A stretch of 64,000 bases of DNA. It comes from Streptomyces sp. NBC_01498. GTDB taxonomy: Bacteria; Actinomycetota; Actinomycetes; Streptomycetales; Streptomycetaceae. Below the pieces are notes generated by a model that had not been told where the DNA came from, ran no database searches, and saw only the letters and a program-made list of their open reading frames with translations. The DNA lies in assembly GCF_036327775.1 (NCBI RefSeq), contig NZ_CP109598.1, positions 2,356,001 through 2,420,000 of the forward strand. Direction: 5' to 3'. A program made the position numbers and the translations under genes. Shown one piece after another: positions 47,875 through 64,000 of this stretch (within the stretch, counting starts at the first letter, position 1; the number at the start of each line of letters is the position of its first letter).

Positions 47875-48252
47875 ATGGGTACTTGGCGGAACGGCAAGGG
47901 CAGACTGACGGTCGAGGGCCGGGGCGAGCCGGTGGAGCTGGAGATCGCGGCCTCGTACGGCACCCGGCGGCGCGGCCTGCTCGGGCGGACCGGGCTCGAC
48001 GGCGCTCTGCTGATCACGCCGTGCAACAGCGTGCACACCTTCCGGATGCGCTTCACGATCGATGTGGCCTATCTGGACAAGGAGTTGAGGGTCGTCCACG
48101 TGCACACCGTCAAACCGGGCCGGATGCCCCTGCCCCGCCTGCGGGCCCGGCACGTACTGGAGGCGGAGGCCGGGGCGATGGAGCGCTGGGGTGTCCGTCC
48201 GGGCGTCCGCCTGACCGTGTCCACGACGCCCGAGGACGTGTCCGGGCGGTAG
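47875..48252 (+). CDS. DUF192-family protein
   Basis: 125 residues. The family core is RGLLGRTGLDGALLITPCNSVHTFRMRFTIDVAYLDKELRVVHV, with the conserved histidine. It is a small soluble protein here, with no signal peptide. The function is unknown. It is divergent from tadV. Confidence 0.88.
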   Translation: MGTWRNGKGRLTVEGRGEPVELEIAASYGTRRRGLLGRTGLDGALLITPCNSVHTFRMRFTIDVAYLDKELRVVHVHTVKPGRMPLPRLRARHVLEAEAGAMERWGVRPGVRLTVSTTPEDVSGR

Positions 48253-49044: not shown

Positions 49045-49281
49045 TCACTCGCCGCTGAGGATGCCGTCCACGGTCTCCGTCAGACCGTTGGCGATGGTCT
49101 CGTCCACACCGGTGCCGACGATGGCGGCGATGATCAGGGCGACCAGGACGATGACGCCGACGTACTCGACCGCGCCCTGGCCCTTGTCGCTGCGGCGCTT
49201 CATCGCGGTGACGGCCGTGTTGGCCCAGGAGCCGACGTAGAGCTTGGCGTTGGTGGCGGCCTTCAGCGTGACGTTCGACAT
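49045..49281 (-). CDS. flp: Flp-type IVb pilin (copy 1)
   Basis: 78 residues. The prepilin motif is DKG-QGAVEY: cleavage after G34 leaves Glu at +5 (E39) and Tyr at +6, followed by a hydrophobic VGVIVLVALIIAAIVGTGV helix. This is the major pilin of a Tad pilus. The basic leader (WANTAVTAMKRRSDKG) is longer than in proteobacterial Flp but shared with copy 2. It has its own AAGGGGAC ribosome site and a strong terminator. Confidence 0.95.
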   Translation of the reverse strand: MSNVTLKAATNAKLYVGSWANTAVTAMKRRSDKGQGAVEYVGVIVLVALIIAAIVGTGVDETIANGLTETVDGILSGE

Positions 49282-49567: not shown

Positions 49568-50233
49568 TCAGTTCTGCGCCGCGTCCGCCGCGCCGCGCGG
49601 GAAGGAGACCTCCACGCGGCGGTTCTTCTTGCGTCCCTCTTCGTTGCCGTTGTCCGCGATCGGGAACTGCTCGCCGTAACCGCGGATCTCGTACTGGATG
49701 CCCGCGGAGGCGAGTTCCTTCTCCAGGACCCCGTGCACGGCCTCGGCCCGCTGCTTGGAGAGCACGTCGCCGTGGGCGGACGAACCGAGGTTGTCCGTGA
49801 AGCCGAAGACGCGGACCTTCGTGGCGCCCTCCTTCTCGATCTCCGCGGCGATGGCGGCGATCCGGGAGTTCGCGGCGCTGGAGAGCTTCGCGCTGTCCTT
49901 CCCGAAGAGGACCTCGGCCTGGAGCGCGAACTTCACCGTCTCGCTGGTGTCCTCGCGACGCTCCTCACCGCCCTCGGACTCGACCACCGAGATGATCGGA
50001 AGCACCCGCGCCGGGGCGAGGGTCGCGCCGTCGCGGAGCTTGAGCCCGGGGGAGGTGCCGTTGACCTCGGGCGGCGGTGAGGTCGACTCGGTCCCCGGCG
50101 GGGTGCTCGGCGACTCGTCGGCCGACGCGCTCGTGGCCAGGGTGAACTGCACGCTGGTGAACAGGACGGCCGCGGCGACGGCGACCGCCGCGGGCCGGGC
50201 GACTGCCCGGCGCGTGCGCGCGGTCACGGCCAT
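49568..50233 (-). CDS. Secreted OmpA/MotB-domain protein
   Basis: 221 residues from the ATG at 50233; a GTG one codon earlier also fits. A signal peptide (about 1-39, VARPAAVAVAAAVLFTSVQF, cleavage near SASADE) precedes a linker and an OmpA-like domain (LFGKDSAKLSSAANSRIAAIA; VRVFGFTDNLGSSAHGDVLSKQRAEAV). It likely binds peptidoglycan and may anchor the pilus machine. It overlaps the lipoprotein gene stop (TGATG). Confidence 0.9.
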   Translation of the reverse strand: MAVTARTRRAVARPAAVAVAAAVLFTSVQFTLATSASADESPSTPPGTESTSPPPEVNGTSPGLKLRDGATLAPARVLPIISVVESEGGEERREDTSETVKFALQAEVLFGKDSAKLSSAANSRIAAIAAEIEKEGATKVRVFGFTDNLGSSAHGDVLSKQRAEAVHGVLEKELASAGIQYEIRGYGEQFPIADNGNEEGRKKNRRVEVSFPRGAADAAQN

Positions 50234-50823
50234 CACGAGATCTCAATCGTCGCGGCGGGCATCGTCGGCATCAGGAGATCGACCTGGGACGTGCTGTCGG
50301 GCGGCGCCGGGAACTGGGCGAAGACCGTGAAGCTCTCCTCGGCCTTGAAGGTGGAGATGCCCGTCGTGGTGAGCGGATGCCCCTCGGTGTCCCGCAGCAC
50401 GAAGTAGCGCTTCTTCTCCTGCTTGTCCACCAGCGTCATGCCCGCGAGGGACCTGCCGGTGCGCCGTACCTGGTTCTCGTCGCCGTTCCAGGAGATCGGC
50501 ACGGTGACGCGCTGCGAGGTGGTGTTCTTGAGTGTTCCGGTCACGGTCAGGAAGCCGGCCTCGTCGCGCACGGCGGTGTGCACGACCAGCTGGATGCCTT
50601 CGTCGCCGTTGATGGTGGCGAGGGTCTGGCTGGTGTCCGGCACCGTGGTACCGCCGTCGTCGTCCTTCGACTTGTCCTCGCCGGGCGCGGCGGACGACGT
50701 GGCGGCGTCGTCCTTGCCGCCCCCGTCGCCACTGCCGCACGCCGTCAGGGACACGGTCAGCGCCACAGCCGCGAGGGCACACCCCGTCGCCCTGCGTGCC
50801 TTCGTTCCATGCCGCATATTCAT
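50233..50823 (-). CDS. Lipoprotein of the tad locus
   Basis: 196 residues from the ATG at 50823. The lipobox LTAC (C29) follows a hydrophobic segment, so the mature protein is membrane-anchored. An acidic Gly/Asp/Ser linker leads to a beta-rich domain (LVVHTAVRDEAGFLTVTGTLKNTTSQRVTVPISW). It overlaps the OmpA-like gene, and the two probably act together. No named family was recognised. Confidence 0.85.
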   Translation of the reverse strand: MNMRHGTKARRATGCALAAVALTVSLTACGSGDGGGKDDAATSSAAPGEDKSKDDDGGTTVPDTSQTLATINGDEGIQLVVHTAVRDEAGFLTVTGTLKNTTSQRVTVPISWNGDENQVRRTGRSLAGMTLVDKQEKKRYFVLRDTEGHPLTTTGISTFKAEESFTVFAQFPAPPDSTSQVDLLMPTMPAATIEIS

Positions 50824-50852
50824 CAGTGTTGATCCTTTGCGTTCACTCGCGG

Positions 50853-51500
50853 TCAGTCCTCGGCCAGTCGGACGGAGAACAGGACAGACATGTCCGGCAG
50901 CACCAGATTCGTGGGGTTCAGGTCCAGGAGCCCGCCGTCGCACCGGATTTCACCGGGCAGCGAGGGCTCGTCAGCGCCCTCCTCGGGCTCCTCGCCCTCC
51001 TCCGGCTCCTCTTCCTCCGGCGCCCGCTCGAACGTGCACCGCGGGACGACGACCGCCGTGGCGGTGGCCTCGGCCTTCTCGTCCGCCGTGTCGGCCAGGA
51101 TGTTGTCGCCCATCGGTTCCTGGGTCTCGACCCCGACGGTGACGCCCCAGCGGAAACCGTCCGCCGGCCGGCATTCGCCCGGCTTCACGGTCACGTCGTT
51201 CTTGTCGGCGAGCTGCTCGGCGGCCGGGCAGCCGACGAAGGGGCCGACCAGATCGCCGTTGAAGACGTTCTCGAGGAAGTCCGGGTCGAAGAAGTTCGCC
51301 AGGAACTCGTCCCCGAACGCGTCGCGGGACTCCTGGGCCGCCGCGAGGGCCGCCGCGTCCGCCCCGGACTGGGCGCCGTTGCGCGCCGCACCGGCCTGGC
51401 CCACGGCGAAGAACGCGAGCGCGAGAAAGAGCAGGCCCGCCACCATCGTGACGTAGAGGGGGGCGGCCTGCCCTGACTCGCGGATGCCTCGTCGGGTCAC
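50853..51500 (-). CDS. TadG-like pilus-assembly protein
   Basis: 215 residues from the GTG at 51500, overlapping flp copy 2 as GTGA. The N-terminal RESGQAAPLYVTMVAGLLFLALAFFAVGQ is a prepilin-like membrane segment with Gly-Gln-Ala-Ala but Leu instead of Glu at +5. The next segment, NGAQSGADAAALAAAQESRDAFG, is typical of TadE/TadG Tad-like proteins. An acidic EEEEPEEGEEPEEG tract is near residue 175. Confidence 0.85.
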   Translation of the reverse strand: MTRRGIRESGQAAPLYVTMVAGLLFLALAFFAVGQAGAARNGAQSGADAAALAAAQESRDAFGDEFLANFFDPDFLENVFNGDLVGPFVGCPAAEQLADKNDVTVKPGECRPADGFRWGVTVGVETQEPMGDNILADTADEKAEATATAVVVPRCTFERAPEEEEPEEGEEPEEGADEPSLPGEIRCDGGLLDLNPTNLVLPDMSVLFSVRLAED

Positions 51501-51736
51501 TCTCCCCCGCCCAGGATCTCTCCGACCTTCTCCGTCAGTCCGTTGGCGATCGACTCGTCGACGCCCGAGCCCACGATCGCGGCGATGATCAGTGCCACCA
51601 GGACGATGACGCCGACGTACTCGACCGCGCCCTGTCCCCGGTCGCCGCGGCGCTTCATCGCCGTGACGGCCGTGTTCGCCCAGGTCCGCACGGACAGAAG
51701 AGTGGTGGTGGCCGTCTTCGGCGTGACGCTCGACAT
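51497..51736 (-). CDS. flp: Flp-type IVb pilin (copy 2)
   Basis: 79 residues, very similar to copy 1: the segment WANTAVTAMKRR through the hydrophobic helix and GVDE-IANGLTE differs at only a few positions. The prepilin site is DRG-QGAVEY with E39 at +5. The leader sequence upstream also resembles that of copy 1 (CCCCTTGTGTGTCGGCCGGCC on the plus strand), so the duplication covers the 5' region. It is followed by an overlapping tadG-like gene. Confidence 0.95.
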   Translation of the reverse strand: MSSVTPKTATTTLLSVRTWANTAVTAMKRRGDRGQGAVEYVGVIVLVALIIAAIVGSGVDESIANGLTEKVGEILGGGE

Positions 51737-51930
51737 GTGAGTCCCCTTGTGTGTCGGCCGGCCGTCCACCGGCCGGCTCGTACGAGTCGTTGCCGTCGTT
51801 CGCGGTTCCGGCTTCCTCCCGACCGGACCCGCCGACAACAGGAGAACCGTACGACGGTGCGACACCCGACACCATGGGCCACGGGGCCCAACTCCGGTAC
51901 CAGCGCCCGGATCCGGGCCTGTCCGTCCGC

Positions 51931-53037
51931 TCAGCCACGGCCGCCCGCCCCTCCGCGCGCACCGTGCCAGAAGGCGATGGCCTCGCCCCGGCTGCCCGCG
52001 TTCAGTTTGGCGAAGATGCGGTTGATGTGGTTCTTGACAGTCTTCTGGCTGATGAAGCAGGCGGCGGCGATCTGCTGATTGGTCATGCCCGACGCGATCA
52101 GATCCATGATCTCCACCTCCCGCTGGCTCAGTTCCGAGTAGAGGCCCTCCGGTGACCCGGTCGCCCCGGCCGTGCCCGGCATCCCCGGCACCGCCTGTCC
52201 CTGAGGAGAATGTGCCATATCCGCTTGCGAAAGCGAAGACCTTTGAGCAAATTGTTGCGGCTTCAACTCCCGATCTCCGGGTGTTACTTGCCTGTTTGTC
52301 GGAGAAACATACGGGGGATGGCCAGGAGCCGCATGTGCGTTCGCAGACGAATGACCCGGCTGCACGGGCTGGTAACCGGCACCCGTGAACGCCGTACCGA
52401 GCCCCTCGGGCAGCGCCCCGGCCCCCGGGTCGGCGCCACCGCCGCCCCGCACGCTCGCCAGCAGCGCGCTGGAGGCCGAGTGCGTGAAGTGGGCCCGGCC
52501 CTGCTTGATGTCCCGTACGGCGGCGACCAGTTGGTCGGCCGTGAACTCACCGTGCACGAGATAGCCTCCCGCGCCCAGCCGCAGCGCCTCGTGGACGATC
52601 TCGCTCTCCCGGCTGTACGTCATCATCAGTACGGGCGCGAGCCGCACCAGGTGCGGCAGGGCGGAGATCCCGTCGACACCCGGCATACGCACGTCCAGCA
52701 GGACGACGTCCGGCCGGTGCTGGACCGTCTGTTCATATGCCTGGCGGCCGTCGACCGCCTCCCCGACGACCTCGATGTCGTCGCGGCCGGACAGCAGGAC
52801 GGTCAGTCCCGCCCGTACCACCGGGTTGTCGTCGGCGACCACCACGCGCAGCGCGGGGGCGGCGGGCATCGGGCCCGGCAGGGCGGGGAATCCTCCGGAT
52901 GCCGTCGGCGGTGCGGACGTGGGGATTCCGGCGGTCTGCTCCGAGCTGAGCGGTGTGGCGTGCGACGACGAGTGCTGCGACACGTGCGACTGCTGGGTCC
53001 AGTGCTGCCCGGAACTCCTTGAGACGTCGTCCGGCAT
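51931..53037 (-). CDS. LuxR/NarL-family response regulator with unusual linker
   Basis: 368 residues, long for this class. A Ser/Gln/His-rich start (~60 residues) precedes the receiver domain (63-190), with D115 in VVLLDVRMPG as phosphoacceptor. A ~105-residue Gly/Pro/Gln linker (196-302) leads to the LuxR helix-turn-helix (ELSQREVEIMDLIASGMTNQQIA, KTVKNHINRIFAKL, 302-356). Bases 52215-52320, inside the linker, drop to about 50% GC. It is encoded behind its histidine kinase, 92 bases apart. Confidence 0.92.
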   Translation of the reverse strand: MPDDVSRSSGQHWTQQSHVSQHSSSHATPLSSEQTAGIPTSAPPTASGGFPALPGPMPAAPALRVVVADDNPVVRAGLTVLLSGRDDIEVVGEAVDGRQAYEQTVQHRPDVVLLDVRMPGVDGISALPHLVRLAPVLMMTYSRESEIVHEALRLGAGGYLVHGEFTADQLVAAVRDIKQGRAHFTHSASSALLASVRGGGGADPGAGALPEGLGTAFTGAGYQPVQPGHSSANAHAAPGHPPYVSPTNRQVTPGDRELKPQQFAQRSSLSQADMAHSPQGQAVPGMPGTAGATGSPEGLYSELSQREVEIMDLIASGMTNQQIAAACFISQKTVKNHINRIFAKLNAGSRGEAIAFWHGARGGAGGRG

Positions 53038-53129
53038 GGCTGCGGCCTCCTCTCCATGGATGGGAACGGTGGGTGGGCTGGTGGTCCCGGACCGGTACGG
53101 AGCGGTGATCCGGGTCGGGCGAGCGGGGA

Positions 53130-54476
53130 TCACGTGAGCAGAGGTTCGGGTTGCTGCTGATGGTGCGGATGGTGTCCGGTGCGGGACAGGCCGAGGGCGT
53201 GCAGCGAGATCTCCAGCCGTACCTCGGTGCCCTGCGCCGCCCGGCCCCGGCCGATGCGGATCCGGGCGCCGATCGATGCCGCGCGCTCCACCATGCCGAC
53301 GAGACCGAAGTGGCCCGCCCGCCGGAGGTCTTCGAGCGAGGTGCCCTGGGGCAGCCCCTTGCCGTCGTCGTACACGCTGATGCGCAGGACGTCGCGCACG
53401 ACGCCCGCCGACACCTCGACGTACGACGGCTGCGCGTGCCGCATCGCGTTCTCCATCGCCTCGGTGGCGATGGTCAGGGCGTGCCGGGCGACGGCGTGCG
53501 GAATGGGCGGCACGGCCGTCTCGCCGAGCGGCCGGAAGGACGCCGGGAGGTCGTGGCGCCGGGTGAAGTCCTCGGTGCGCGCCCGGAGTTCGTCCACGAC
53601 GTCCACGCCGCCGTCCAGGCCGGACTCCCGGCGCAGGTCGGAGAGGAGTTCGCGGGACTCGGCGGCGGCCCGGCGGGCGGAGCGCGCGACGAGTTCCGCC
53701 TGGTGCTTGACGGTGAGCGGGTCCATGCGGTCGGCGGTGCTGGCGAGACCGTCGGCGGCCATCGCGAGCCCGTGCAGCGTCTTGGCGACCGAGTCGTGCA
53801 TCTCGCGGGCGAGCCGGGCCCGTTCCTCCTCGACCGCGCCGGTGACGGCGAGCCGGGCGCGCGCCTCGGTGAGCGCCTGGCTGGCGGTGCCGAAGCCCAT
53901 CATGAGGTTGCGCAGGGTGGTGCCCACGGCGCCCGCGATGACGCACAGGCCGGGCAGCAGCAGGGCGCTGAAGCCGACCTCGACGTCCGTGTTGACGGCG
54001 TACGCGCCGGCCACCAGCAGGGCCTGGAGGAGGGCGAACAGGACGGCACCGCGCCAGCCGTAGACGAGCCCCGCCAGCAGGGGCGTGCAGATGGTGACGT
54101 ACGCGACGGTCGAGTCCGGCGACGCGGTGACGAGGAGGAGCGCGCCGACCACGGTGTCGGCGGCGAGGAGCAGCGGATGCCTCAGCAGGATCGGCCCGAA
54201 CCGCTCCCAGTCGCGGAACAGCAGGTACGACACCATGAACGTGACCACCACCGCGGAGGCGACGAGCCAGGTGCCGATCCCCGCCGCGGTGCGTTGCAGC
54301 GCGAAGGGGGAGGCGAGCGCGATCATCGCCAGGCGGAAGCCGAAGACCTGACGGCACAGCGCCTGGAGGGCGTTGATCTGGATCGGCAGCGAGGGCACGT
54401 TGCGGCGTGTGGCGGTGGTCTGCCCGAGTGGTTCGCTGCTGATGCCGCCCGTGAGTACGGCCAGTGCCGGGGTCAT
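53130..54476 (-). CDS. NarL-type sensor histidine kinase
   Basis: 448 residues. About five membrane segments (about 45-185) are followed by a HisKA_3 helix with the phosphoacceptor H227 in RLAREMHDSVAKTLHGL, and a HATPase domain (TEAMENAMRHA, VYDDGKGLPQG, GHFGLVGMVERAASIGARI). A short C-terminal His/Gln tail ends it. It pairs with the LuxR regulator. Being inside the tad locus, it probably controls pilus gene expression. Confidence 0.92.
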   Translation of the reverse strand: MTPALAVLTGGISSEPLGQTTATRRNVPSLPIQINALQALCRQVFGFRLAMIALASPFALQRTAAGIGTWLVASAVVVTFMVSYLLFRDWERFGPILLRHPLLLAADTVVGALLLVTASPDSTVAYVTICTPLLAGLVYGWRGAVLFALLQALLVAGAYAVNTDVEVGFSALLLPGLCVIAGAVGTTLRNLMMGFGTASQALTEARARLAVTGAVEEERARLAREMHDSVAKTLHGLAMAADGLASTADRMDPLTVKHQAELVARSARRAAAESRELLSDLRRESGLDGGVDVVDELRARTEDFTRRHDLPASFRPLGETAVPPIPHAVARHALTIATEAMENAMRHAQPSYVEVSAGVVRDVLRISVYDDGKGLPQGTSLEDLRRAGHFGLVGMVERAASIGARIRIGRGRAAQGTEVRLEISLHALGLSRTGHHPHHQQQPEPLLT

Positions 54477-54534: not shown

Positions 54535-55419
54535 TCAGCCGAGGATGTTCGCGAAGTCGACGCCGGAGCCGTAGTAGAAGCTCAGCACGATGAGGATCAT
54601 GGTGGCCGGGAGCATGACCATCGTGACGACGAGCGTGGTCTTCGGAACGGCCTTGGCCGCGTTGCGGCGGGCGTTCTGCGCGTCGGTGCGGCGCATGTCG
54701 TTCGCGATCTGGATGAGGGTGTCGACGATCGGCGCGCCGAGTTCCTCGCCCTGCTGGAGCGCGGTGACGAACATCGAGACCTGGTCGGAGTCGTTGCGCC
54801 GGCGCAGATGGTCGAAGGCCTCCCGGCGGCTGACGCCCATGTCCATCTGGCGCAGGGTGATGCGCAGTTCGTCCGCCCAGGGGCCGCTGTAGCGCTCCGC
54901 GACCCGCTCCAGGGCCTGCCGGAAGCCGAGTCCGGCGGAGACGACGACGGCGAGGACGTCCAGGAAGTCGGGCAGGGTGCGTTCGATGTCGTCCCGGCGT
55001 TTGCTGATCGCGACGCGGATGATGACGTCGGTCCAGAAGAACCCGTAGATCAGGGCGAAGATCCCGAGGGGCACCTGGCCGCGGATGATCAGGGCGAAGC
55101 AGGCGAAGCCGCCGAGGAAGCCGTAGACGGCGCGGCGCGCGGCGTAGCGGTCGACGGTCATACCGCCGGGGTTGCCCGCCATGTCGAGGCGGCGGCGAAT
55201 CGCGTCGACGCGCTTGGGTCCCATCATCCGCAGGACGGACGGGGCGTAGCGCATGCCCATGCGGTCGATGCCGGAACCGACGGCGGTGGTACGGGTGGCG
55301 CCGACCTCCAGGGCGATCGCGAGGTCGCTGGGGAGTTTGGCGTCGGCCCGGTAGAGGCGGACTCCGTGGAAGGCGCCGTACACGGCGAGTCCCACGACGG
55401 CGGCGAGAATCAGTCCCAT
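54535..55419 (-). CDS. tadC: TadC-like inner-membrane platform protein
   Basis: 294 residues. It is a type II secretion F-domain protein: the T2SSF core (LPDFLDVLAVVVSAGLGFRQALERVAER) and membrane helices near residues 1-20, ~105-140 and the C-terminus. With TadB it forms the platform of the Tad pilus machine. It follows tadB by 16 bases. Confidence 0.93.
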   Translation of the reverse strand: MGLILAAVVGLAVYGAFHGVRLYRADAKLPSDLAIALEVGATRTTAVGSGIDRMGMRYAPSVLRMMGPKRVDAIRRRLDMAGNPGGMTVDRYAARRAVYGFLGGFACFALIIRGQVPLGIFALIYGFFWTDVIIRVAISKRRDDIERTLPDFLDVLAVVVSAGLGFRQALERVAERYSGPWADELRITLRQMDMGVSRREAFDHLRRRNDSDQVSMFVTALQQGEELGAPIVDTLIQIANDMRRTDAQNARRNAAKAVPKTTLVVTMVMLPATMILIVLSFYYGSGVDFANILG

Positions 55420-55435
55420 TGTCGTGTTCCCCCTC

Positions 55436-56374
55436 TCAGACCTGGATCCGGGACATCCGCCGGATGGCGATGTATCCGACGGCGTACAGCGCGAACGCGA
55501 GGATGGTGCCGACCTGTCCGGCGGTGGCGCCGGTCATCTTGTCGAGCGCGCCGGGTGTCATGTTGTTGATGAGCAGCAGGAAGCCGAGGCCGATCGCGGG
55601 GACCGCGAGGGCGGTGACCTGGATCTGCGAGAGCACCGTCTTGACCTCGCGCCGGGTCTCCTTGCGCTCCTCCAGGGTCTCGGTGAGGTTGCGCAGCGAG
55701 GTGACGACCTGGCCGCCGGCCCGGCTGGAGAGCACGAGGGTGGTGACGAGGACGACGAGTTCGCGGGAGGGCAGGCGCTGGGCGAGTTCGTCGAGGGCGT
55801 CGTCCAGGGACTGGCCGACGGCCAGCTGGTCGGCGACCTTGCGCAGTTCCTCGCCGGCCGGGTTGTCGAGTTCCTCGGACGCCATGACCAGGGCCGTACG
55901 CATCGCGAGACCGGCCTGGGTGGCGTTGGCGAGCACGCGCGTCAGCTCGGGGAGCTGGTTGATGAACGCCTCGGTGCGCTTGACGCGCTGCCAGTTGAGG
56001 AACGCGTTGCCGCCCCAGAGGCCCGCCAGCGCGGCCAGCACGCCGAAGAACGAGGCGAAGACGGCGCCGATGAGGAAGTAGAGCCCGAGCAGTCCGGCCG
56101 CCATGTAGACCAGGTACTCGCCCGGGGTCAGGTCGAGGCCGGTGACGGTGATCTTGCGCTCGACGCGCTTGCCGAAGCCGGTGGCGCGCAGGCGCCGGTC
56201 GAAGGCTCCGAAGCGGCGCTGCCGGCCGCTCGTCGTGATCTGCCCCGTCTGGGACATCCGGTCGACGAGCGCCTCGCGCTGGGCCTTGCCCGACGAGTAG
56301 ACGTGCACGCCGATGACGCCGAGCACACACGTGAGCAGTGTGACGCCGATCGTCAGAAGCGGAAGATTATCCAT
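55436..56374 (-). CDS. tadB: TadB-like inner-membrane platform protein
   Basis: 312 residues. T2SSF domain (LPELTRVLANATQAGLAMRTALVMASEEL) with membrane segments at the N-terminus, ~95-125, and the C-terminus. TadB and TadC interact with the CpaF/TadA ATPase. The gene lies between cpaF and tadC in the same direction. Confidence 0.93.
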   Translation of the reverse strand: MDNLPLLTIGVTLLTCVLGVIGVHVYSSGKAQREALVDRMSQTGQITTSGRQRRFGAFDRRLRATGFGKRVERKITVTGLDLTPGEYLVYMAAGLLGLYFLIGAVFASFFGVLAALAGLWGGNAFLNWQRVKRTEAFINQLPELTRVLANATQAGLAMRTALVMASEELDNPAGEELRKVADQLAVGQSLDDALDELAQRLPSRELVVLVTTLVLSSRAGGQVVTSLRNLTETLEERKETRREVKTVLSQIQVTALAVPAIGLGFLLLINNMTPGALDKMTGATAGQVGTILAFALYAVGYIAIRRMSRIQV

Positions 56375-56494: not shown

Positions 56495-57832
56495 TCAGGC
56501 GACCGCCGTACGCAGCGCGAGGTCGTCCTCGGACTGCGCGACGCCGAAGGCGGGCGGGATGGGTTCGCCCCGCATGTAGAGGCGCTCCGCGATCCTGCGG
56601 GGCAGCGGGTAGTACTCGAAGTGGCCCTTGACCTGGCCCTCGGTGGACATGGGCTGGGCCAGGAAGCGGCAGACCGAGACGATCCGGTACTCCTCGCGGC
56701 CGTGCGAGTCGACGATGGCGATCTCGGTGAGTCGCCGGGAGCCGTCGGCGTGCCGGGTGAGCTGCACGATGACGTCGACGGCGCTGTTGATCTGGTCCTT
56801 GATCGCCTCGAAGGGGATCTCGACCTCGGACATGGAGGCCAGGGTCTGGAGTCGCATCAGCGCGTCCTCGGCGCTGTTGGCGTGGACGGTCGCGAGCGAG
56901 CCGTCGTGACCGGTGGACATGGCCTGGAGCATGTCGAGGGTCTCACCGCCGCGGACCTCACCGACGATGATGCGGTCGGGCCGCATACGCAGGGAGTTGC
57001 GGACCAGGTCGCGAATGGTGACCTGGCCCTTGCCCTCGACGTTGGCGGGGCGGGTCTCCAGGGTGATCACGTGCGGCTGCTGGAGCTGGAGTTCGGCGGA
57101 GTCCTCGATGGTGACGATGCGCTCGCCGGACGGGACGAGGCCGGAGAGCGCGTTGAGGAGGGTCGTCTTGCCGGTACCGGTGGCGCCGGAGACGATCACG
57201 TTGAACTTGGCGCGGACGAGTCCGGACAGCAGCACCATCATCTGCTCGTCGAGCGAGCCGAGTCCGATCAGCTCCTGGAGGGTGAACGCGCGCGGGAAGC
57301 GCCGGATCGTGAGGATGGGACCGCTGAGGGACAGCGGCGGGATGATGACGTTGACACGCTCACCGGACGGCAGTCGCGCGTCGACCATCGGATTGGCCTC
57401 GTCCACCCGGCGGTTGACCGTGGAGACGATGCGCTCGATGGTCTGCATCAGCTGTTCGTTGGAGGCGAACCGCATCGGCAGCAGCTCCAGCCGGCCGCTG
57501 CGCTCCACGAAGACCTGCTCGGGTCCGTTGACCATGATCTCGCTGATGGAGGCGTCTTCGAGCAGGGGTTCCAGGATGCCGAGGCCGAGAGCCTCGTCCA
57601 CGACGCGGCGGATCAGCTGGGAACGCTCGCCGGTGGAGAGCACGGGGCCCTCGCGGCTGATGATGTGGCCGAGGACCCGCTCCAGCCTGGCCCGGCGCTC
57701 GGCCGCGGCCAGCGCGGACATCTCCGCGAGGTCGATCTCCTCGAGGAGCTTGGCCCGGTAGACACCGACGAGGAGGCTTTCCTCGCTGCGTCCGGTGGGC
57801 TCGGGGCTGCTGATGCGCGCCCTCAGGCTCAT
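56495..57832 (-). CDS. cpaF: CpaF/TadA-family pilus secretion ATPase
   Basis: 445 residues. The Walker A motif is GATGTGKTT at residues 216-224. The Asp box and Walker B regions are in RIVTIEDSAELQLQ and RIIVGEVRGGETLDMLQAMSTGHDG. The N-terminal domain has SEIMVNGPEQVFVE. It powers pilus polymerisation in the cytoplasm. It lies 120 bases upstream of tadB. Confidence 0.95.
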   Translation of the reverse strand: MSLRARISSPEPTGRSEESLLVGVYRAKLLEEIDLAEMSALAAAERRARLERVLGHIISREGPVLSTGERSQLIRRVVDEALGLGILEPLLEDASISEIMVNGPEQVFVERSGRLELLPMRFASNEQLMQTIERIVSTVNRRVDEANPMVDARLPSGERVNVIIPPLSLSGPILTIRRFPRAFTLQELIGLGSLDEQMMVLLSGLVRAKFNVIVSGATGTGKTTLLNALSGLVPSGERIVTIEDSAELQLQQPHVITLETRPANVEGKGQVTIRDLVRNSLRMRPDRIIVGEVRGGETLDMLQAMSTGHDGSLATVHANSAEDALMRLQTLASMSEVEIPFEAIKDQINSAVDVIVQLTRHADGSRRLTEIAIVDSHGREEYRIVSVCRFLAQPMSTEGQVKGHFEYYPLPRRIAERLYMRGEPIPPAFGVAQSEDDLALRTAVA

Positions 57833-57931: not shown

Positions 57932-58459
57932 TCAGTCCATCGGCATGGTGGTGCTCCTGGTCGCCTCGCCCAGGTCGAAGATCGGCAGTATCGAGGGGAT
58001 CTCCACCTCGGCCGTGACCTCGTAGTCCTCGGCACCGGGCTGGGAGGTGAACGTCGTGCCCTGGGCGAGCCAGTCGCTCATCGAGGACTCGCCCACCTGC
58101 TGCCAGCCCGCGTCGTACTGGGAGGCGGCGCGGGCGGCGGCCCGGGAGGCCGTACCCGCCTGCTGGACCGCGTAGGCGGCGATGCCGAGCTGGATGACGG
58201 CGAGGCCGGCGATGAGCAGGATGAAGACGGTGCCGGCGAGTTCGATCGCCGCCTGGCCGCCGTCGGACCGGTACGCGCGGCGCGGGTGCCCGTCCCGTAC
58301 GGGGGCGTCCTTCCGTACCGGGGTGTCCTGCCGTACGGGGGCGTCGTGCGGCAGGGCGGTGTCCTGCCACCCGGCGGTGTCGTGCTGTACGGCGGCCTCG
58401 TGCCGTACGGCGTCCCGCGCCCGTACCGCGTCCTCGCCCCGGAGCTTTCGGTTCACCAT
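57932..58459 (-). CDS. TadE-like pseudopilin with extended N-terminus
   Basis: 175 residues. The prepilin-like segment is DGG-QAAIELAGTVFILLIAGL, with Glu at +5 (E73). Before it is a ~66-residue charged leader with degenerate repeats (DTALPHDAPVRQDTPVRKDAPVRDG). After it is an exported domain with Ala-rich helix (SRAAARAASQYDAGWQQVGES). The leader is much longer than in most TadE proteins; GTG or TTG starts nearer the hydrophobic segment would shorten it. Confidence 0.85.
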   Translation of the reverse strand: MVNRKLRGEDAVRARDAVRHEAAVQHDTAGWQDTALPHDAPVRQDTPVRKDAPVRDGHPRRAYRSDGGQAAIELAGTVFILLIAGLAVIQLGIAAYAVQQAGTASRAAARAASQYDAGWQQVGESSMSDWLAQGTTFTSQPGAEDYEVTAEVEIPSILPIFDLGEATRSTTMPMD

Positions 58460-58462
58460 GGG

Positions 58463-58906
58463 TCAGCTCTCCCTCGGCGCGGCGGCCTTGCCGGTGACAT
58501 TGACGTCGATGTCGAAGCCCGGGAAGAGGATCGGTACGTCGAGCTCGACCTCCGCCCGGACGAGGTCGTTCTCCTCCTCGGCCCAGCAGTCGATGCCGGC
58601 GATGTCCCACGAGTCCGGCAGGTCTTCCTCCGCCGCGTCCGTGCACTCGTCGATCCGGCTGTTCTCCGCCACCGTCGCGGCGCGGACCGCCTCGTCGGCG
58701 GCGTTGCCCGCGAGGGAGAAGGTGTAGCCGACGAGCGCGCCCTGCCAGAGCAGGATCAGGACGGCCAGGATGAGCGGCACCATTCCGGTGAACTCGACGG
58801 CGGCCTGGCCCCGGTCGTCCCGCGTCCGGCCCCGGCGCGGCGTGTCACCGCGGGGCGCGGTCACCGCTGCGCCCTCGTCCGGCGTCTCTGCTGTTGGATT
58901 GCTCAT
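58463..58906 (-). CDS. tadE: TadE-like pseudopilin
   Basis: 147 residues. The prepilin site is DRG-QAAVEFTGMVPLIL (G33, E38 at +5), followed by a membrane helix and an exported domain with two cysteines (DECTDAAEEDL and IDCWAEEEND) that may pair. A minor pseudopilin of the Tad system. The next gene on the strand starts 3 bases away. Confidence 0.9.
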   Translation of the reverse strand: MSNPTAETPDEGAAVTAPRGDTPRRGRTRDDRGQAAVEFTGMVPLILAVLILLWQGALVGYTFSLAGNAADEAVRAATVAENSRIDECTDAAEEDLPDSWDIAGIDCWAEEENDLVRAEVELDVPILFPGFDIDVNVTGKAAAPRES

Positions 58907-58971: not shown

Positions 58972-60219
58972 CTACTTCGTCCGCCCGCGCCGGACCCCGA
59001 CGGAGCCCCGGTCCCCCTTGAGCTTCCCCTGTTTCCGGTCGCCTTCGGGGGCCTTCACCAGGCCCAGTTCCCCGGCGAGCGCCCAGAGCGCCTGCTTCAC
59101 GGTCGACTTGGACTCCAGGTCCTGCATGCGGCCGGCGTCGACCACCGCGTGCAGCTCCTTGAAGTTCGCCGGGATCACGACCCGCGACACCTTGGTGCTG
59201 GTGATCTTCTCGATGAGCGGCGGCTGGATCTCGGTGTTCCGCATGTAGCGGTTGACCACGATCGTGGTCTCCTCCGCCTTGCGGATCTGGAGCCGGTCCC
59301 AGAGGCGCACCATGCGCTTGGCCGCCCGCACCGCCACCACGTCGGGGGTGGTCAGCAGCAGGGTGGTGTCCGCCATCTCGATCGCCGCCGCGTTCGCGCT
59401 CGTCGTCTGCGTGCCGCAGTCGACGATGACGACCTCGTAGCGGTTGCGCAGCGCGCTGACGATCTGGCGTACGGACCGGTCGTTGATCTCCTCGCCCCGC
59501 TCGCCCTCGCCCGGCGCGAGCAGCAGCCCGATCCCGGTCGGGTGGGTGAAGACCGCGTCCTGGAGCACGCGGGGCGAGATGTCCTGGATGGTGGCGAGGT
59601 CCACGATGGAGCGGCGGAACTGCACGTCCAGGTACGAGGCGACGTCGCCGGCCTGGAGATCCAGATCGGCGAGCGCCACCGTCATGCCCGACGTCCGCGC
59701 GGCGAGGGCGAGTTGGACGGCGGCGACCGTCGTACCGACCCCGCCCTTCGCCCCGCTCACGGTCACGACGGTGCCGCCGGGACCGGTGAACACGTCGCCG
59801 CCGTGCCCGAGATGGCGCCGTACGCCCACGGACCAGGCCGCGGCGGCCTGGACGCGCTGGGCGAGTTCCTCGTACGAGAGGGGGAGCCCGACCAGTCCCC
59901 GGGCGCCGGAGTCCATCGCGGCCGAGAAGAGGCCGGGGCTGGCGTCGGCGGTGACCAGGATGACCCCGACCGCCGGGAAGCGGAGGGCCACCTCCCGGAT
60001 CAGCTCAAGGGCCGGCACGGGGCCGATCCGCTCGTGCACCAGGACGACTTCGGGCAGTTCGTCGATCGACTCGGCGGCCAGCCGGGCCAGGGTGTCGATC
60101 AGCGAGGTCGAGTCGCCGACCGGCCCGGCCGGCTCCGCGTCGGGCAACTGGCTGAGCAGTGTGGTGATCGATCTGGCGGCGTCGGCATCACCGACCACCG
60201 GGAGGAGTCTGGTCGTCAT
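58972..60219 (-). CDS. cpaE: CpaE/TadZ-like P-loop ATPase
   Basis: 415 residues. A receiver-like N-terminal domain (about 1-130, lacking a clear phosphoacceptor pocket) is followed by a ParA/MinD-type ATPase with the deviant Walker A KGGVGTT (158-164). TadZ/CpaE proteins place the Tad machine in the cell. It starts 8 bases after the cpaB-like stop. Confidence 0.92.
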   Translation of the reverse strand: MTTRLLPVVGDADAARSITTLLSQLPDAEPAGPVGDSTSLIDTLARLAAESIDELPEVVLVHERIGPVPALELIREVALRFPAVGVILVTADASPGLFSAAMDSGARGLVGLPLSYEELAQRVQAAAAWSVGVRRHLGHGGDVFTGPGGTVVTVSGAKGGVGTTVAAVQLALAARTSGMTVALADLDLQAGDVASYLDVQFRRSIVDLATIQDISPRVLQDAVFTHPTGIGLLLAPGEGERGEEINDRSVRQIVSALRNRYEVVIVDCGTQTTSANAAAIEMADTTLLLTTPDVVAVRAAKRMVRLWDRLQIRKAEETTIVVNRYMRNTEIQPPLIEKITSTKVSRVVIPANFKELHAVVDAGRMQDLESKSTVKQALWALAGELGLVKAPEGDRKQGKLKGDRGSVGVRRGRTK

Positions 60220-60226
60220 GCGTCCC

Positions 60227-60940
60227 TCACTTGTCCCCTTCGAGCGTGTAGGTGCTCTCTCCGGGGCGCAGCGTCGTGGGGCTGTCGTCGGGAAGCAGAG
60301 CGAGGCGTACGTGCTGGGCGAAGGACTCGGCGTAGGCGACGCGCTGGGCGTCCTTGGTCTTGAGGGCGAAGGTGATGGGAACGGCCTTGATCGGTCCGCC
60401 GCTGCGGCCGCGGTCGTCCTCCTTGGGCTCCAGCGGGGTCAGCGAACCGACGTCGATCACCTTGGCGTTGGGGACGATGATCCGCGACTGGGCCTTGGTC
60501 TCGTCGTTCTCGGCGGCGAAGGTCGCGAAGATGTTGACCAGGTCACCCGCGTTGATCTTGCCCGCGACACCGGTGGCGGCGTCGATCATGATGGCGATCT
60601 CCTGCTCGTCGTTGGCGAGCGCGGGCCGCTTGACCATCATGTCGTCCTGGAGGAGCGACCCCTTCTTGAGCTGGGTGACCGCGATCTTGCCGTTGACGAG
60701 CGACAGGTCGGTCACCGCGTTGTCCGACAGCCAGCGTTTGGGCATCTCTATCTTCTCGAACTGCCCCTCCTCCAGCGCCGTGTACGGCGCGACGTCCGCC
60801 TTCAGCCGGTACGCGGGCACCTCGGGGCCGACCTTCGAATTCACGTCGCTGATCACCGAGAGCACGCCGGCGAAGGCGCCGAAGGCGCAGAGGACGGAGA
60901 GAAGAAGGAGAATGATGCCGCGGCGTTGCCGTGAATTCAT
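60227..60940 (-). CDS. cpaB: CpaB/RcpC-like SAF-domain pilus protein
   Basis: 237 residues. An N-terminal membrane segment (RRGIILLLLSVLCAFGAFAGVL) precedes a SAF/RcpC region (PAYRLKADVAPYTALEEGQFEKIEMPKRW; QLKKGSLLQDDMM; GKINAGDLVNIFATF). RcpC/CpaB-type proteins support pilus assembly or modification outside the membrane. It lies directly upstream of cpaE. Confidence 0.9.
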   Translation of the reverse strand: MNSRQRRGIILLLLSVLCAFGAFAGVLSVISDVNSKVGPEVPAYRLKADVAPYTALEEGQFEKIEMPKRWLSDNAVTDLSLVNGKIAVTQLKKGSLLQDDMMVKRPALANDEQEIAIMIDAATGVAGKINAGDLVNIFATFAAENDETKAQSRIIVPNAKVIDVGSLTPLEPKEDDRGRSGGPIKAVPITFALKTKDAQRVAYAESFAQHVRLALLPDDSPTTLRPGESTYTLEGDK

Positions 60941-61064: not shown

Positions 61065-61943
61065 TTACGACCCGTGGCGCGTTGGTGGTCCTTGACTGAG
61101 GACACCCGGAGCGGGTGTGTGGTTCTCCGCCGACGCGAGTGGCGCGGAACAGAAACCGCAGCGGTCACCGATGAGTTCGAGACCGCACCAGGAACACACC
61201 TCTCGCCGTACGGACGAAACGAGCTGGTAAAGAACGGAGATATCCGGCAGGAACGCGGCGAACTCGACCATCTTGGACGTACCCCACCAGCGCGGGGAAT
61301 CACCCAGGAGTGGCATCTCGTGCACTCCCTGGACCTTCCAGGCGGGCGCGAGGGTCGCCGTCACCCAGTCCGACTGCAATTGTCCTTTTCCGACCAGCAG
61401 TTGAGTGCCGAATTCGGGCCCGGTGAGTTCACCGTTCCCGATCTTGATCAACTGGGGGTCGGGGTTGGCCAGGACACCGAACTGTGACCCGGGCACCCAG
61501 GACTTGGCGTGCGACTTGAGGCTGACGGGGACCCGGTCGAGCTTCGCGACCGAGTTGAGGAGCGCTCCCGCGTGGATGTAGTGGGAGAGCAGCCGGGCGG
61601 CCGACGCGACGACGCCCGCGCTGAAGTCGCAGATCGACAGCTGTCGCAACTGCCGCACGAGGACGGCGAGTCCGAGCGGCGGGAGGTCCAGCTTGAGGAA
61701 CGCGATCCGGTCGCTCTCCAGGACGGAGCGGACGGTGTGCAGTCGCTGTTCGTGCGCCACCGGGAGGGAGGCGGGGTAGACGGCGACGACATAACCGTGC
61801 TGCTCCACCAGGACCTGCATGTCCGCCAGCGCGGCCTCCAGCGGCTGGACATCGGGTGCCTGGAGCAGAGCCGCGGGGGGCGTCTGCTGGTCGGTGGGTG
61901 GCAGCACCAGGTCGTGACTGGTGACAGCTATGGCGGTAGACAC
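61065..61943 (-). CDS. Zinc-ribbon hypothetical protein heading the tad operon
   Basis: 292 residues with no signal peptide or membrane segment. The C-terminal ~45 residues contain a CxxC pair and a second CxxC (VCSWCGLELIGDRCGFCSAPL, near 249-268), a zinc-ribbon pattern. The middle part has no recognised domain. It is the first gene of the minus-strand tad cluster, 124 bases before cpaB. A regulatory or adaptor role is guesswork. Confidence 0.8.
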   Translation of the reverse strand: MSTAIAVTSHDLVLPPTDQQTPPAALLQAPDVQPLEAALADMQVLVEQHGYVVAVYPASLPVAHEQRLHTVRSVLESDRIAFLKLDLPPLGLAVLVRQLRQLSICDFSAGVVASAARLLSHYIHAGALLNSVAKLDRVPVSLKSHAKSWVPGSQFGVLANPDPQLIKIGNGELTGPEFGTQLLVGKGQLQSDWVTATLAPAWKVQGVHEMPLLGDSPRWWGTSKMVEFAAFLPDISVLYQLVSSVRREVCSWCGLELIGDRCGFCSAPLASAENHTPAPGVLSQGPPTRHGS

Positions 61944-62410: not shown

Positions 62411-63943
62411 ATGAGACGGACAGCGATACGAGGGGGCCCACGGGACGACCGCGGCACCTCCGCCACCGAGTACGCGGGCATGGTGGTGGTCGTCGCGGCC
62501 GTCGTGGGGGCCCTGGTGGGCACCGGCGTGGACACCACCATCGCCGAACAGCTCAAGTGCCTGGTCAGGTTCGGCCCGTGCGACACCGGCGGGGGCGGCG
62601 AGAACCAGGCCGCGCCCAAGACCGACGCCGACTACGAGCCGCCGCTCTGCCAGATCTCCTCGATCAGCGACAAGGCGGGCGCCAAGGGCAAGTTGCTGTT
62701 CATCGAGTGGGGCGAGGAGTACGGCTTCCAGCAGCAGACGTTCCAGTCGAAGACCGACGTGAACGGCGACGGCACGGTCGACGACCGGGACCAGCAGGTG
62801 ATGATGACCTTCACCGACGCCGCGTCCGTCGCCGCCAAGAAGGACTGGAAACCGGGCGCCAAGGTCGGCAAGTTCGGCTCGGACAAGGTGGAACTCGGTG
62901 CGGGGATCAAGGTGACGAACGGCGACACCTGGGTCTTCGACAGCGAGGAGGAGGCCGCGAAGTTCCGGGACGACATCGAGGAACTGAAGACGTACGAGCT
63001 GGCCAACCGGCACTCCAACTCGCGCGGCGGCGGGCTCGGCAACAGCATCCTCTACCTCTTCGACAGCGGCCCGATGTACGAGGAGGAGCAGCTGCGCAAG
63101 CGCATCGAGGAGCGGCTGGGCAACCGTCACATCAGCTACGGCAAGGTCGGCCTGGAGGCCAGCGCCGCCGGTGGTCTGAAGCTGTCGCCCGGCGACGAGA
63201 AGAAGCTCAGCGCGACGCTCGGCGGCAGTTTCAAGTTCTCGCCCGAGGTGACCTGGACCGACAACACCTACCGGAACATCAAGTCGTACACGTACAGCGC
63301 CGCCATCGAGTACACGGGCAAGGTCGGCTACGAGGCGGGGCCGCTGAGCGGCGAGTCGAGCGGCACCACGACGCAGACCGGCACCATCACCGTCAGCCAC
63401 GACAAGACGACCGGTGAGCTGCTGCGCATCGACATGACCCGCACGGTCGAGAAGGGCGCCACCAAGGACGGGGTCACCGTCGGCGGCGACAACGGCAAGG
63501 ACGGCGACGACAAGCGCGGCGGCAGCGGCAGTGTGAAGGGCACGGAGAACCGGACGGGCATCGAGGTCGTGACCAACTCGGTCGTCCTCAAGCCGGGCCC
63601 CGAGGGTGCCGAGCAGCGCGCGATCGCCCAGAAGTGGCTGGACGGCAGCGGCGACAACGCGGCACCGTTCTCCTACATGTTCGACGACCACGCGCCGACG
63701 AAGCGTCCCGGCGCGGACGACCCGTTCGGACAGCTCCTCTTCGACGAGGGCCTGTCGAGCCGCAACACGTACACCGGGCAGACGGAGGCCGCGGAGTACG
63801 GGTTCGAGCTGAACCTGGGTCTGAGCTTCGGCTTCTCGGTCTCCACCGAGAAGAAGGAGGAGAACCTCGACGACGCGCAGTTCCTGGGTGCGCCGCAGGG
63901 GGGCAACCGCAGCTATGTCCCGTACAGCTACTGTGCGAACTGA
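62411..63943 (+). CDS. Flp-like prepilin segment fused to a large exported domain
   Basis: 510 residues from the ATG at 62411. Residues 11-45 copy the Flp pattern: DDRG-TSATEYAGMVVVVAA, so cleavage after G15 leaves Glu at +5 (E20) and Tyr at +6, then a helix ending VGTGVDTTIAEQL, like the pilins' VGTGVDETIANGL. A Gly-rich linker (~57-65) with C50, C57 and C80 leads to ~430 residues with no recognised family. It includes a dockerin/EF-hand-like DVNGDGTVDDRD loop (116-127) and alternating polar beta-like segments. It is divergent from the tad operon. It probably is processed by TadV and exposed on the surface. The function is unknown. Confidence 0.8.
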   Translation: MRRTAIRGGPRDDRGTSATEYAGMVVVVAAVVGALVGTGVDTTIAEQLKCLVRFGPCDTGGGGENQAAPKTDADYEPPLCQISSISDKAGAKGKLLFIEWGEEYGFQQQTFQSKTDVNGDGTVDDRDQQVMMTFTDAASVAAKKDWKPGAKVGKFGSDKVELGAGIKVTNGDTWVFDSEEEAAKFRDDIEELKTYELANRHSNSRGGGLGNSILYLFDSGPMYEEEQLRKRIEERLGNRHISYGKVGLEASAAGGLKLSPGDEKKLSATLGGSFKFSPEVTWTDNTYRNIKSYTYSAAIEYTGKVGYEAGPLSGESSGTTTQTGTITVSHDKTTGELLRIDMTRTVEKGATKDGVTVGGDNGKDGDDKRGGSGSVKGTENRTGIEVVTNSVVLKPGPEGAEQRAIAQKWLDGSGDNAAPFSYMFDDHAPTKRPGADDPFGQLLFDEGLSSRNTYTGQTEAAEYGFELNLGLSFGFSVSTEKKEENLDDAQFLGAPQGGNRSYVPYSYCAN

Positions 63944-63968: not shown

Positions 63969-64000
63969 ATGAGCAGGAAGAACGGCAAGAATTCCGAGGC
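63969..64000 (+). CDS. Start of a gene after the pilin fusion (partial)
   Basis: An ATG at 63969 follows CAGGAG by seven bases or so. The first residues are MSRKNGKNSEA; the window ends after about ten codons. It is 25 bases past the fusion-gene stop, so cotranscription is likely. Nothing can be said about its function. Confidence 0.6.
   Translation, partial: MSRKNGKNSE

Follow-up and report, generated by a model that had tools for sequence, protein, structure and literature searches.

A Flp-headed beta protein beside a Streptomyces tad locus as a possible fixed component of a Tad-based weapon

What does a protein do that begins like a Flp prepilin, lies beside a tad locus, and is far too large to be a pilin? 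This question is raised by an intact open reading frame on the plus strand (62411..63943; ATG at 62411, stop codon at 63941-63943) of the 64,000-nucleotide stretch of Streptomyces sp. NBC_01498 DNA analyzed here (the window), which lies in a host chromosome assembled as one 7.27 Mb contig. The frame encodes a protein of 510 amino acid residues, referred to below as the Flp-headed protein. A preliminary description, made from the window alone, had suggested a minor or tip protein of the pilus, or an adhesin, that is delivered by the Tad machine. The reading that we tentatively prefer, while holding it at somewhat less than an even chance, is that the Flp-headed protein is a conserved Tad passenger and a shared, invariable part of a contact-dependent weapon built on that machine.

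The prepilin head and the adjoining tad locus

Residues 1-45 of the Flp-headed protein follow the class III prepilin pattern. Residues 11-45 read RDDRGTSATEYAGMVVVVAAVVGALVGTGVDTTIA, with Gly15, Glu at +5, and Tyr at +6, followed by GTGVDTTIA. The corresponding stretches of the two short Flp pilins in the window are GTGVDETIA (49045-49281) and GSGVDESIA (51497-51865), and a genome search with the Flp-headed protein as query matched the short pilins via the same residues 11-45; the common GTGVD-TIA ending reported earlier was thus confirmed by both sequence and search. The putative leader comprises residues 1-15 (62411..62455, plus strand), up to a cleavage site that is predicted from the conservation of Gly15. 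The predicted mature N-terminus (62456..62521, plus strand) carries Glu20 (+5), Tyr21 (+6), and a hydrophobic helix (residues 18-37) that is placed by the alignments and modeled at pLDDT <50. In alignment A1 (28 rows including the Flp-headed protein, 27 of which cover the head), Gly15 and Gly23 were present in 27/27 rows, Glu20 in 25/27 (Asp in two), and Tyr21 in 25/27 (Leu in two). In alignment A2 (39 rows, also including the Flp-headed protein), Gly15, Tyr21, and Gly23 were present in all rows and Glu20 in 37 (Asp in two). The cleavage pattern noted in the preliminary description is therefore near-invariant in both alignments.

The likeness to Flp (class III) pilins consists of the GxxxxEY motif with the cut after Gly, the hydrophobic helix, the GTGVD-TIA end, and the position beside a Tad machine. 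In contrast to Flp pilins (<130 residues), the Flp-headed protein has a 430-residue beta domain and cysteines at positions 57, 80, and 508, and about 450 residues exceed Flp-pilin length, as had been stated. These cysteines are kept in 27/28 rows of A1 (the remaining row has a gap) and in 39/39 rows of A2; the corresponding part of the two short pilins contains no Cys. At 510 residues the protein is not a short major fiber subunit, nor, by its size, a repeating one. An ordinary Flp pilin extended by a frameshift or read-through was ruled out by the intact frame and by full-length versions in 26 of 150 genomes.

Profile scans agreed with the earlier remark that no family could be recognized, as neither Pfam nor NCBIfam gave a match to the Flp-headed protein above cut-off. 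It was also left unmatched by the Flp_Fap (PF04964) and Class_IIIsignal (PF04021) profiles. These profiles are blind here because the short pilins of the genome also escape them: PF04964 missed the pilins, PF04021 matched them only below threshold, and the Pfam Flp profile run against the genome at E 0.001 gave zero matches, short pilins included. No TadE-type profile (Pfam, NCBIfam) and no toxin family (Pfam, NCBIfam, PADLOC) matched the Flp-headed protein, and no plasmid relatives were found in PLSDB at E 1e-5. The named relatives listed were from Streptomyces, with one record titled [Kitasatospora] papulosa. The DVNGDGTVDD loop, described before as of a Ca-binding type, is present at residues 116-125 (62756..62785, plus strand) as a single EF-hand-like loop supported by sequence, a sub-threshold Pfam match, and the alignment, and it is of the Ca-binding type by sequence pattern. 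The DxNxDG pattern was found in 23/28 rows of A1, one row of which does not cover the loop. The Pfam profile concerned, Dockerin_1, scored 16.2 bits against a cut-off of 22.9, and among 13 relatives it matched two, with a best E of 0.0028. A search of solved structures by sequence returned only a dockerin (E 0.1). A dockerin or cellulosome protein was ruled out, since two EF-hand-like repeats are required and the Flp-headed protein has one, below threshold.

The core tad set adjoins this gene, as the preliminary description had it, and occupies the minus strand from 46.9 to 61.9 kb, from the TadV end to the CpaB/zinc-ribbon end. The gap between the two divergent starts is 467 bp. The divergent neighbor encodes a 292-residue protein with a sub-threshold zinc-ribbon match (DZR, Pfam; 61065..61943) that lies beside CpaB in relatives too. 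It is followed, all on the minus strand, by CpaB/RcpC (60227..60940), a TadZ/CpaE-like ATPase (58972..60219), and two TadE-like minor pilins (57932..58906), each assigned by Pfam and NCBIfam, and then by the TadA/CpaF ATPase (T2SSE; 56495..57832), TadB and TadC (T2SSF; 54535..56374), a response regulator and histidine kinase within the locus (51931..54476), the short pilin Flp2 with an uncertain start codon (51497..51865), a TadE/G-like protein (PF13400; 50853..51500), an OmpA-family protein and a lipoprotein recognized by eye and retained in the tad loci of relatives (49568..50943), the 78-residue pilin Flp1 (49045..49281), and the TadV prepilin peptidase (PF01478; 46884..47771). A small plus-strand frame between TadV and the pilin gene (47875-48252) presumably encodes a DUF192-like protein. 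A third short Flp pilin gene (G000:C1:3759470, locus L003), whose head is very similar to that of Flp1, lies at a great distance from this region. No A24 prepilin peptidase other than TadV was found in the genome, which makes export of the Flp-headed protein by Tad plausible, as had been proposed.

Predicted structure of the beta domain

The Flp-headed protein was modeled with AlphaFold (pLDDT 70, pTM 0.67). The predicted beta domain spans residues 79-504 (62645..63922, plus strand), with 12 long strands and helical inserts at residues 179-236 and 397-446. A paralogous family was modeled with the same strand order (pLDDT 61). The best fold matches of both models were 12-stranded autotransporter-type barrels, with low Foldseek TM-scores (0.08-0.42 among the 50 matches listed). 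No other fold class stood above the barrels among the matches listed, with a second look at the folds based on Foldseek's top 1000. According to these models, a barrel of 12 strands is the most probable fold of the beta domain.

Insertion of this barrel into a membrane is doubtful, because the AlphaFold inputs were few (39 and 17 sequences), the N-terminus is poorly modeled (residues 1-66 mostly at pLDDT <50), the two modeled families are related to each other, and only 4/12 strands showed a clear hydrophobic face (permutation p <= 0.06). The autotransporter barrels EstA, BrkA, AIDA-I, NalP, and EspP share 6-11% identity with the Flp-headed protein, and descent from them is not claimed. Unlike these barrels, the Flp-headed protein has a pilin head and a weak hydrophobic belt. 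Its host has a single membrane, unlike the hosts of autotransporters.

Distribution, tad linkage, and operon partners

With up to 10 candidates scored in each genome, full-length orthologues were found in at least 26 of 150 same-genus genomes, including the genome of the window, and CpaB in 148 of these 150. Of the 26 orthologues, 25 adjoin tad genes; 23 lie within 35 kb of CpaB, at two different locus positions, and two more (G002 and G021; loci L060 and L061) lie beside TadV. The preliminary description had asked whether orthologues always sit beside tad genes, and had named orthologues with neither a tad locus nor Glu at +5 as evidence against its reading. The linkage holds with the exception of G069, where the orthologue lies 1.9 Mb from CpaB and keeps the Glu+5 motif. 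Such departures were seen at the edges only, and they include a distant second copy in G097, also off the tad locus, and versions with a non-Flp head that lack the motif.

Across the class, a sample of 394 genomes, with up to four candidates scored in each, yielded the body of the Flp-headed protein in at least 20 genomes from 11 genera. Among 12 genomes outside the genus, from three other families, core tad genes lay within 14 kb in seven; of the remaining five, one had only the OmpA/lipoprotein pair and four had no tad genes found. The head motif was present in 21 of the 26 distinct proteins with a locus in the class-wide search, degenerate in L184, and absent by pattern in L197; the remaining three have a different head, described below. 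Three paralogues in the genome of the window are Flp-headed beta proteins encoded away from the tad locus (L169:3584-5233, L170:3572-5167, and L222:6741-8579).

The paralogues and the single distant orthologue are what would be expected if the Flp-like head were a mere membrane anchor with no functional link to Tad. We consider this very unlikely, given that the prepilin positions are conserved, also outside the genus, and that tad linkage recurs at different locus positions. A large minor pilin, or a tip protein or adhesin of an ordinary Tad pilus, would account for the pilin head and for tad linkage that extends beyond the genus; the head would anchor in the fiber and the beta domain would bind surfaces or hyphae. 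Like Tad tip minor pilins (TadEFG and the Myxococcus Kil tips, which serve killing; PMC12075869), the Flp-headed protein has an N-terminus of prepilin type, a large outer domain, and a tie to Tad, and variable minor-pilin domains are reported for the Myxococcus tips in the same paper. Unlike these tip pilins, it has no TadE-type match, its relatives are located among Flp-headed toxins, and separate TadE and TadE/G-like genes are present in the window. Moreover, the contrast between 26 and 148 of 150 genomes suggests a gene that is accessory to a generally present machine and probably dispensable for the pilus. The pilin-type head and the Tad linkage thus stand from the earlier suggestion, nothing specific for a tip or adhesin was found, and we regard this explanation as rather unlikely.

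The gene of the Flp-headed protein is followed by genes for a lipoprotein, a DUF3592 protein, and a small membrane protein, in which about four helices can be recognized by eye. The lipoprotein (221 residues, lipobox LLAAGC by eye) starts in the window (63969..64000, plus strand) and ends outside it (L001:3635). With searches at E up to 0.01, the lipoprotein gene was found in 26/26 loci of one set (L037-L062) and 42/43 of another (L077-L119), and the membrane-protein gene in 25/26 and 42/43, the two sets overlapping in genomes. Locus L086 stops just past the Flp-headed gene, and in L062 both partner genes lie upstream of it. Outside the genus, a lipoprotein-like gene was recognized by eye after the relatives in L205, L208, and L212 (20-24% identity in the lipoprotein alignment), and a small membrane-protein gene in L208-L212, L214, and L216. 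A search of solved structures by sequence with the lipoprotein as query returned only a flagellin (E 0.095). One clade has the membrane protein fused to the Flp-headed protein itself, as its first ~150 residues; fused P0104 matched a separate membrane-protein gene with 33% identity over 148 residues (E 3e-18). Because this fused part precedes the predicted cut, TadV would split it from the Flp-headed protein. The known membrane family DUF3488, the label of the fused-clade entries P0088 and P0108, was rejected, as Pfam was empty on the relative P0104. A role in phage defense was likewise rejected, as PADLOC matched neither the Flp-headed protein nor the lipoprotein and membrane protein encoded with it.

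The conserved lipoprotein and membrane-protein genes are candidates for the cognate immunity gene that a polymorphic toxin would have downstream. The Flp-headed protein could accordingly be imagined as being itself an effector or pore-forming toxin, one whose C-terminus is fixed and for which these partners would provide immunity. The membrane-bound partners, the predicted barrel, a head of the same kind as that of toxins, and the occurrence of the body on another head would fit. We nevertheless judge this unlikely. The C-terminus is conserved across the 27 Flp-headed rows of A1, no lipoprotein or membrane-protein genes were found near the three own-genome paralogues or beside the non-Flp version in L063, and in the fused clade the membrane partner sits before the cut site, together with the leader.

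Flp-headed toxins and the proposed role

With the Flp-headed protein as query, head-only matches to other large open reading frames were obtained. Among 20 Flp-headed proteins scanned, 11 had PT-HINT and five Tox-REase-5 (one had both), one each had Ntox21, an XOO_2897-type deaminase, and Abhydrolase_8, and three had no domain. Three Flp-headed toxin-like proteins are clustered in L069 (3523-10982); two share one N-terminal region and the third has a very similar one, and they end in Ntox21, a deaminase, and an unrecognized region after PT-HINT. Immediately after one of the three, a SUKH-4 immunity protein is encoded. The genome of the window also encodes a Flp-headed toxin with a Tox-REase-5 end (L065:7392-9149; G000:C1:2699391), 281 kb from the gene at 62411..63943 and outside the window; its last ~135 residues match the PADLOC candidate PDC-M17A (E 4e-18).

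Two Flp-headed toxin types were followed through the 150 genomes; the PT-HINT-type profile gave 38 rows, of which 20 with both head and middle region were kept (17 headless rows and one with the head only were dropped). The PT-HINT type gave 20 hits in 11 genomes, 10 of which carry the Flp-headed beta gene (hypergeometric 4.5e-8), the other type, partial matches included, was found in 28 genomes, 18 of them with the gene (1.4e-10), and the union of 34 genomes includes 23 of the 26 gene-bearing genomes (7.8e-16), all three values taking the genomes as unrelated and resting on toxin profiles built from loci first found via the head of the Flp-headed protein. Eleven genomes had these toxin types without the gene and three the gene without them. 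Because relatedness is uncorrected, the profiles are head-derived, and the C-termini of these candidate toxins were scanned for only part of the hits, the co-occurrence is read as association only. Sixteen of the 20 PT-HINT-type proteins share a contig with CpaB, 12 of them within 35 kb and four at 50 kb to 3 Mb. When the PT-HINT-type profile was run on 296 genomes sampled across the class, 19 were matched at E 1e-8, many via the head or middle region alone. Versions of the middle region that lack a Flp head also exist (L131-L143 and L149; 13 of the 17 headless rows belong to frames 2169-2596 residues long), which would fit head swapping; these large frames are perhaps RHS-type toxins.

The body of the Flp-headed protein was itself found on another, non-Flp head in two genomes (G087 and G512; L180, L182, and L196). 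In G087, this version (L063:6948-16050) lies beside genes for a 1518-residue FtsK/SpoIIIE ATPase (E 8e-60) and an 82-residue protein with a sub-threshold WXG100 match, which makes L063 likely to be a type VII secretion locus. No FtsK/SpoIIIE or WXG100-like genes were seen beside L220, and Pfam named no family for the non-Flp head in L220. We take the non-Flp head of the L063/L220 type to resemble type VII substrates. The body would thus be a passenger able to swap its head, apparently common to two secretion systems. Fusions of the head to toxin modules, together with the body on a non-Flp head, speak for an exported passenger no less than for a part of the pilus. These two genomes and the enrichment with Flp-headed toxins both speak against the minor-pilin or adhesin explanation.

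Judged from the sequences, the head seems to be a ticket that admits short pilins, toxins, and the Flp-headed beta protein to the Tad machine. A weapon component is proposed because like heads carry pretoxin-HINT and nuclease modules, many of them in the same tad loci, and because such proteins are markedly enriched where the gene occurs. The Flp-headed protein shares the kind of trafficking head and the loci with polymorphic toxins (PMC3482391, as far as its accessible text goes), and differs from them in a C-terminus that is invariant in kind and in matching no toxin family. The constancy of the body, its own membrane partners, and the company of toxins are, by any single reading, best accommodated by a fixed part of a weapon that relies on Tad. 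The first ~45 residues would act as a class III (Flp) prepilin head, and TadV would cut after Gly15 to yield the mature helix, which the Tad ATPase and platform may draw into the pilus apparatus or all the way through it. The 430-residue beta domain would then end up outside, displayed or released, and could cooperate with the lipoprotein and small membrane protein of the same operon to assist Flp-headed toxins in their action on other cells, whether as a pore, a receptor, or a docking piece. A bolder version, which we think improbable though worth stating, is that in single-membrane Actinobacteria Tad delivers weapons with Flp heads as ticket and polymorphic toxins as payload, and that the Flp-headed protein is the entry pore (a Tad translocon), a 12-stranded outer-membrane-type barrel inserting into the envelope of another cell.

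In Myxococcus, a Tad-like apparatus with minor-pilin tips mediates contact killing (PMC12075869), and the toxin of this Kil/Tad system was still undiscovered as of 2021 (PMC8460266). The words "pilin," "Flp," "pilus," and "TadE" are absent from the accessible text of the polymorphic-toxin survey PMC3482391, and a 2025 paper mentions ARC toxin domains with "Flp pilins" in passing (PMC12605009). In the accessible parts of open-access papers, no description of the Flp-headed protein, its operon, or a Tad toxin set was found.

The presence of CpaB in 148 of 150 Streptomyces genomes makes the Tad machine near-universal in this sample, hence the interest of its function there. To our knowledge, little work has addressed its role in Streptomyces. 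The antibacterial-type toxin domains on like heads suggest that this pilus machine may also export weapons or their helpers. If the head is indeed a ticket for both the toxins and the barrel protein, Tad would represent a further route of contact-dependent antagonism in Gram-positive bacteria, and a possible counterpart to Myxococcus Kil/Tad killing for which sequences already supply named candidate toxins.
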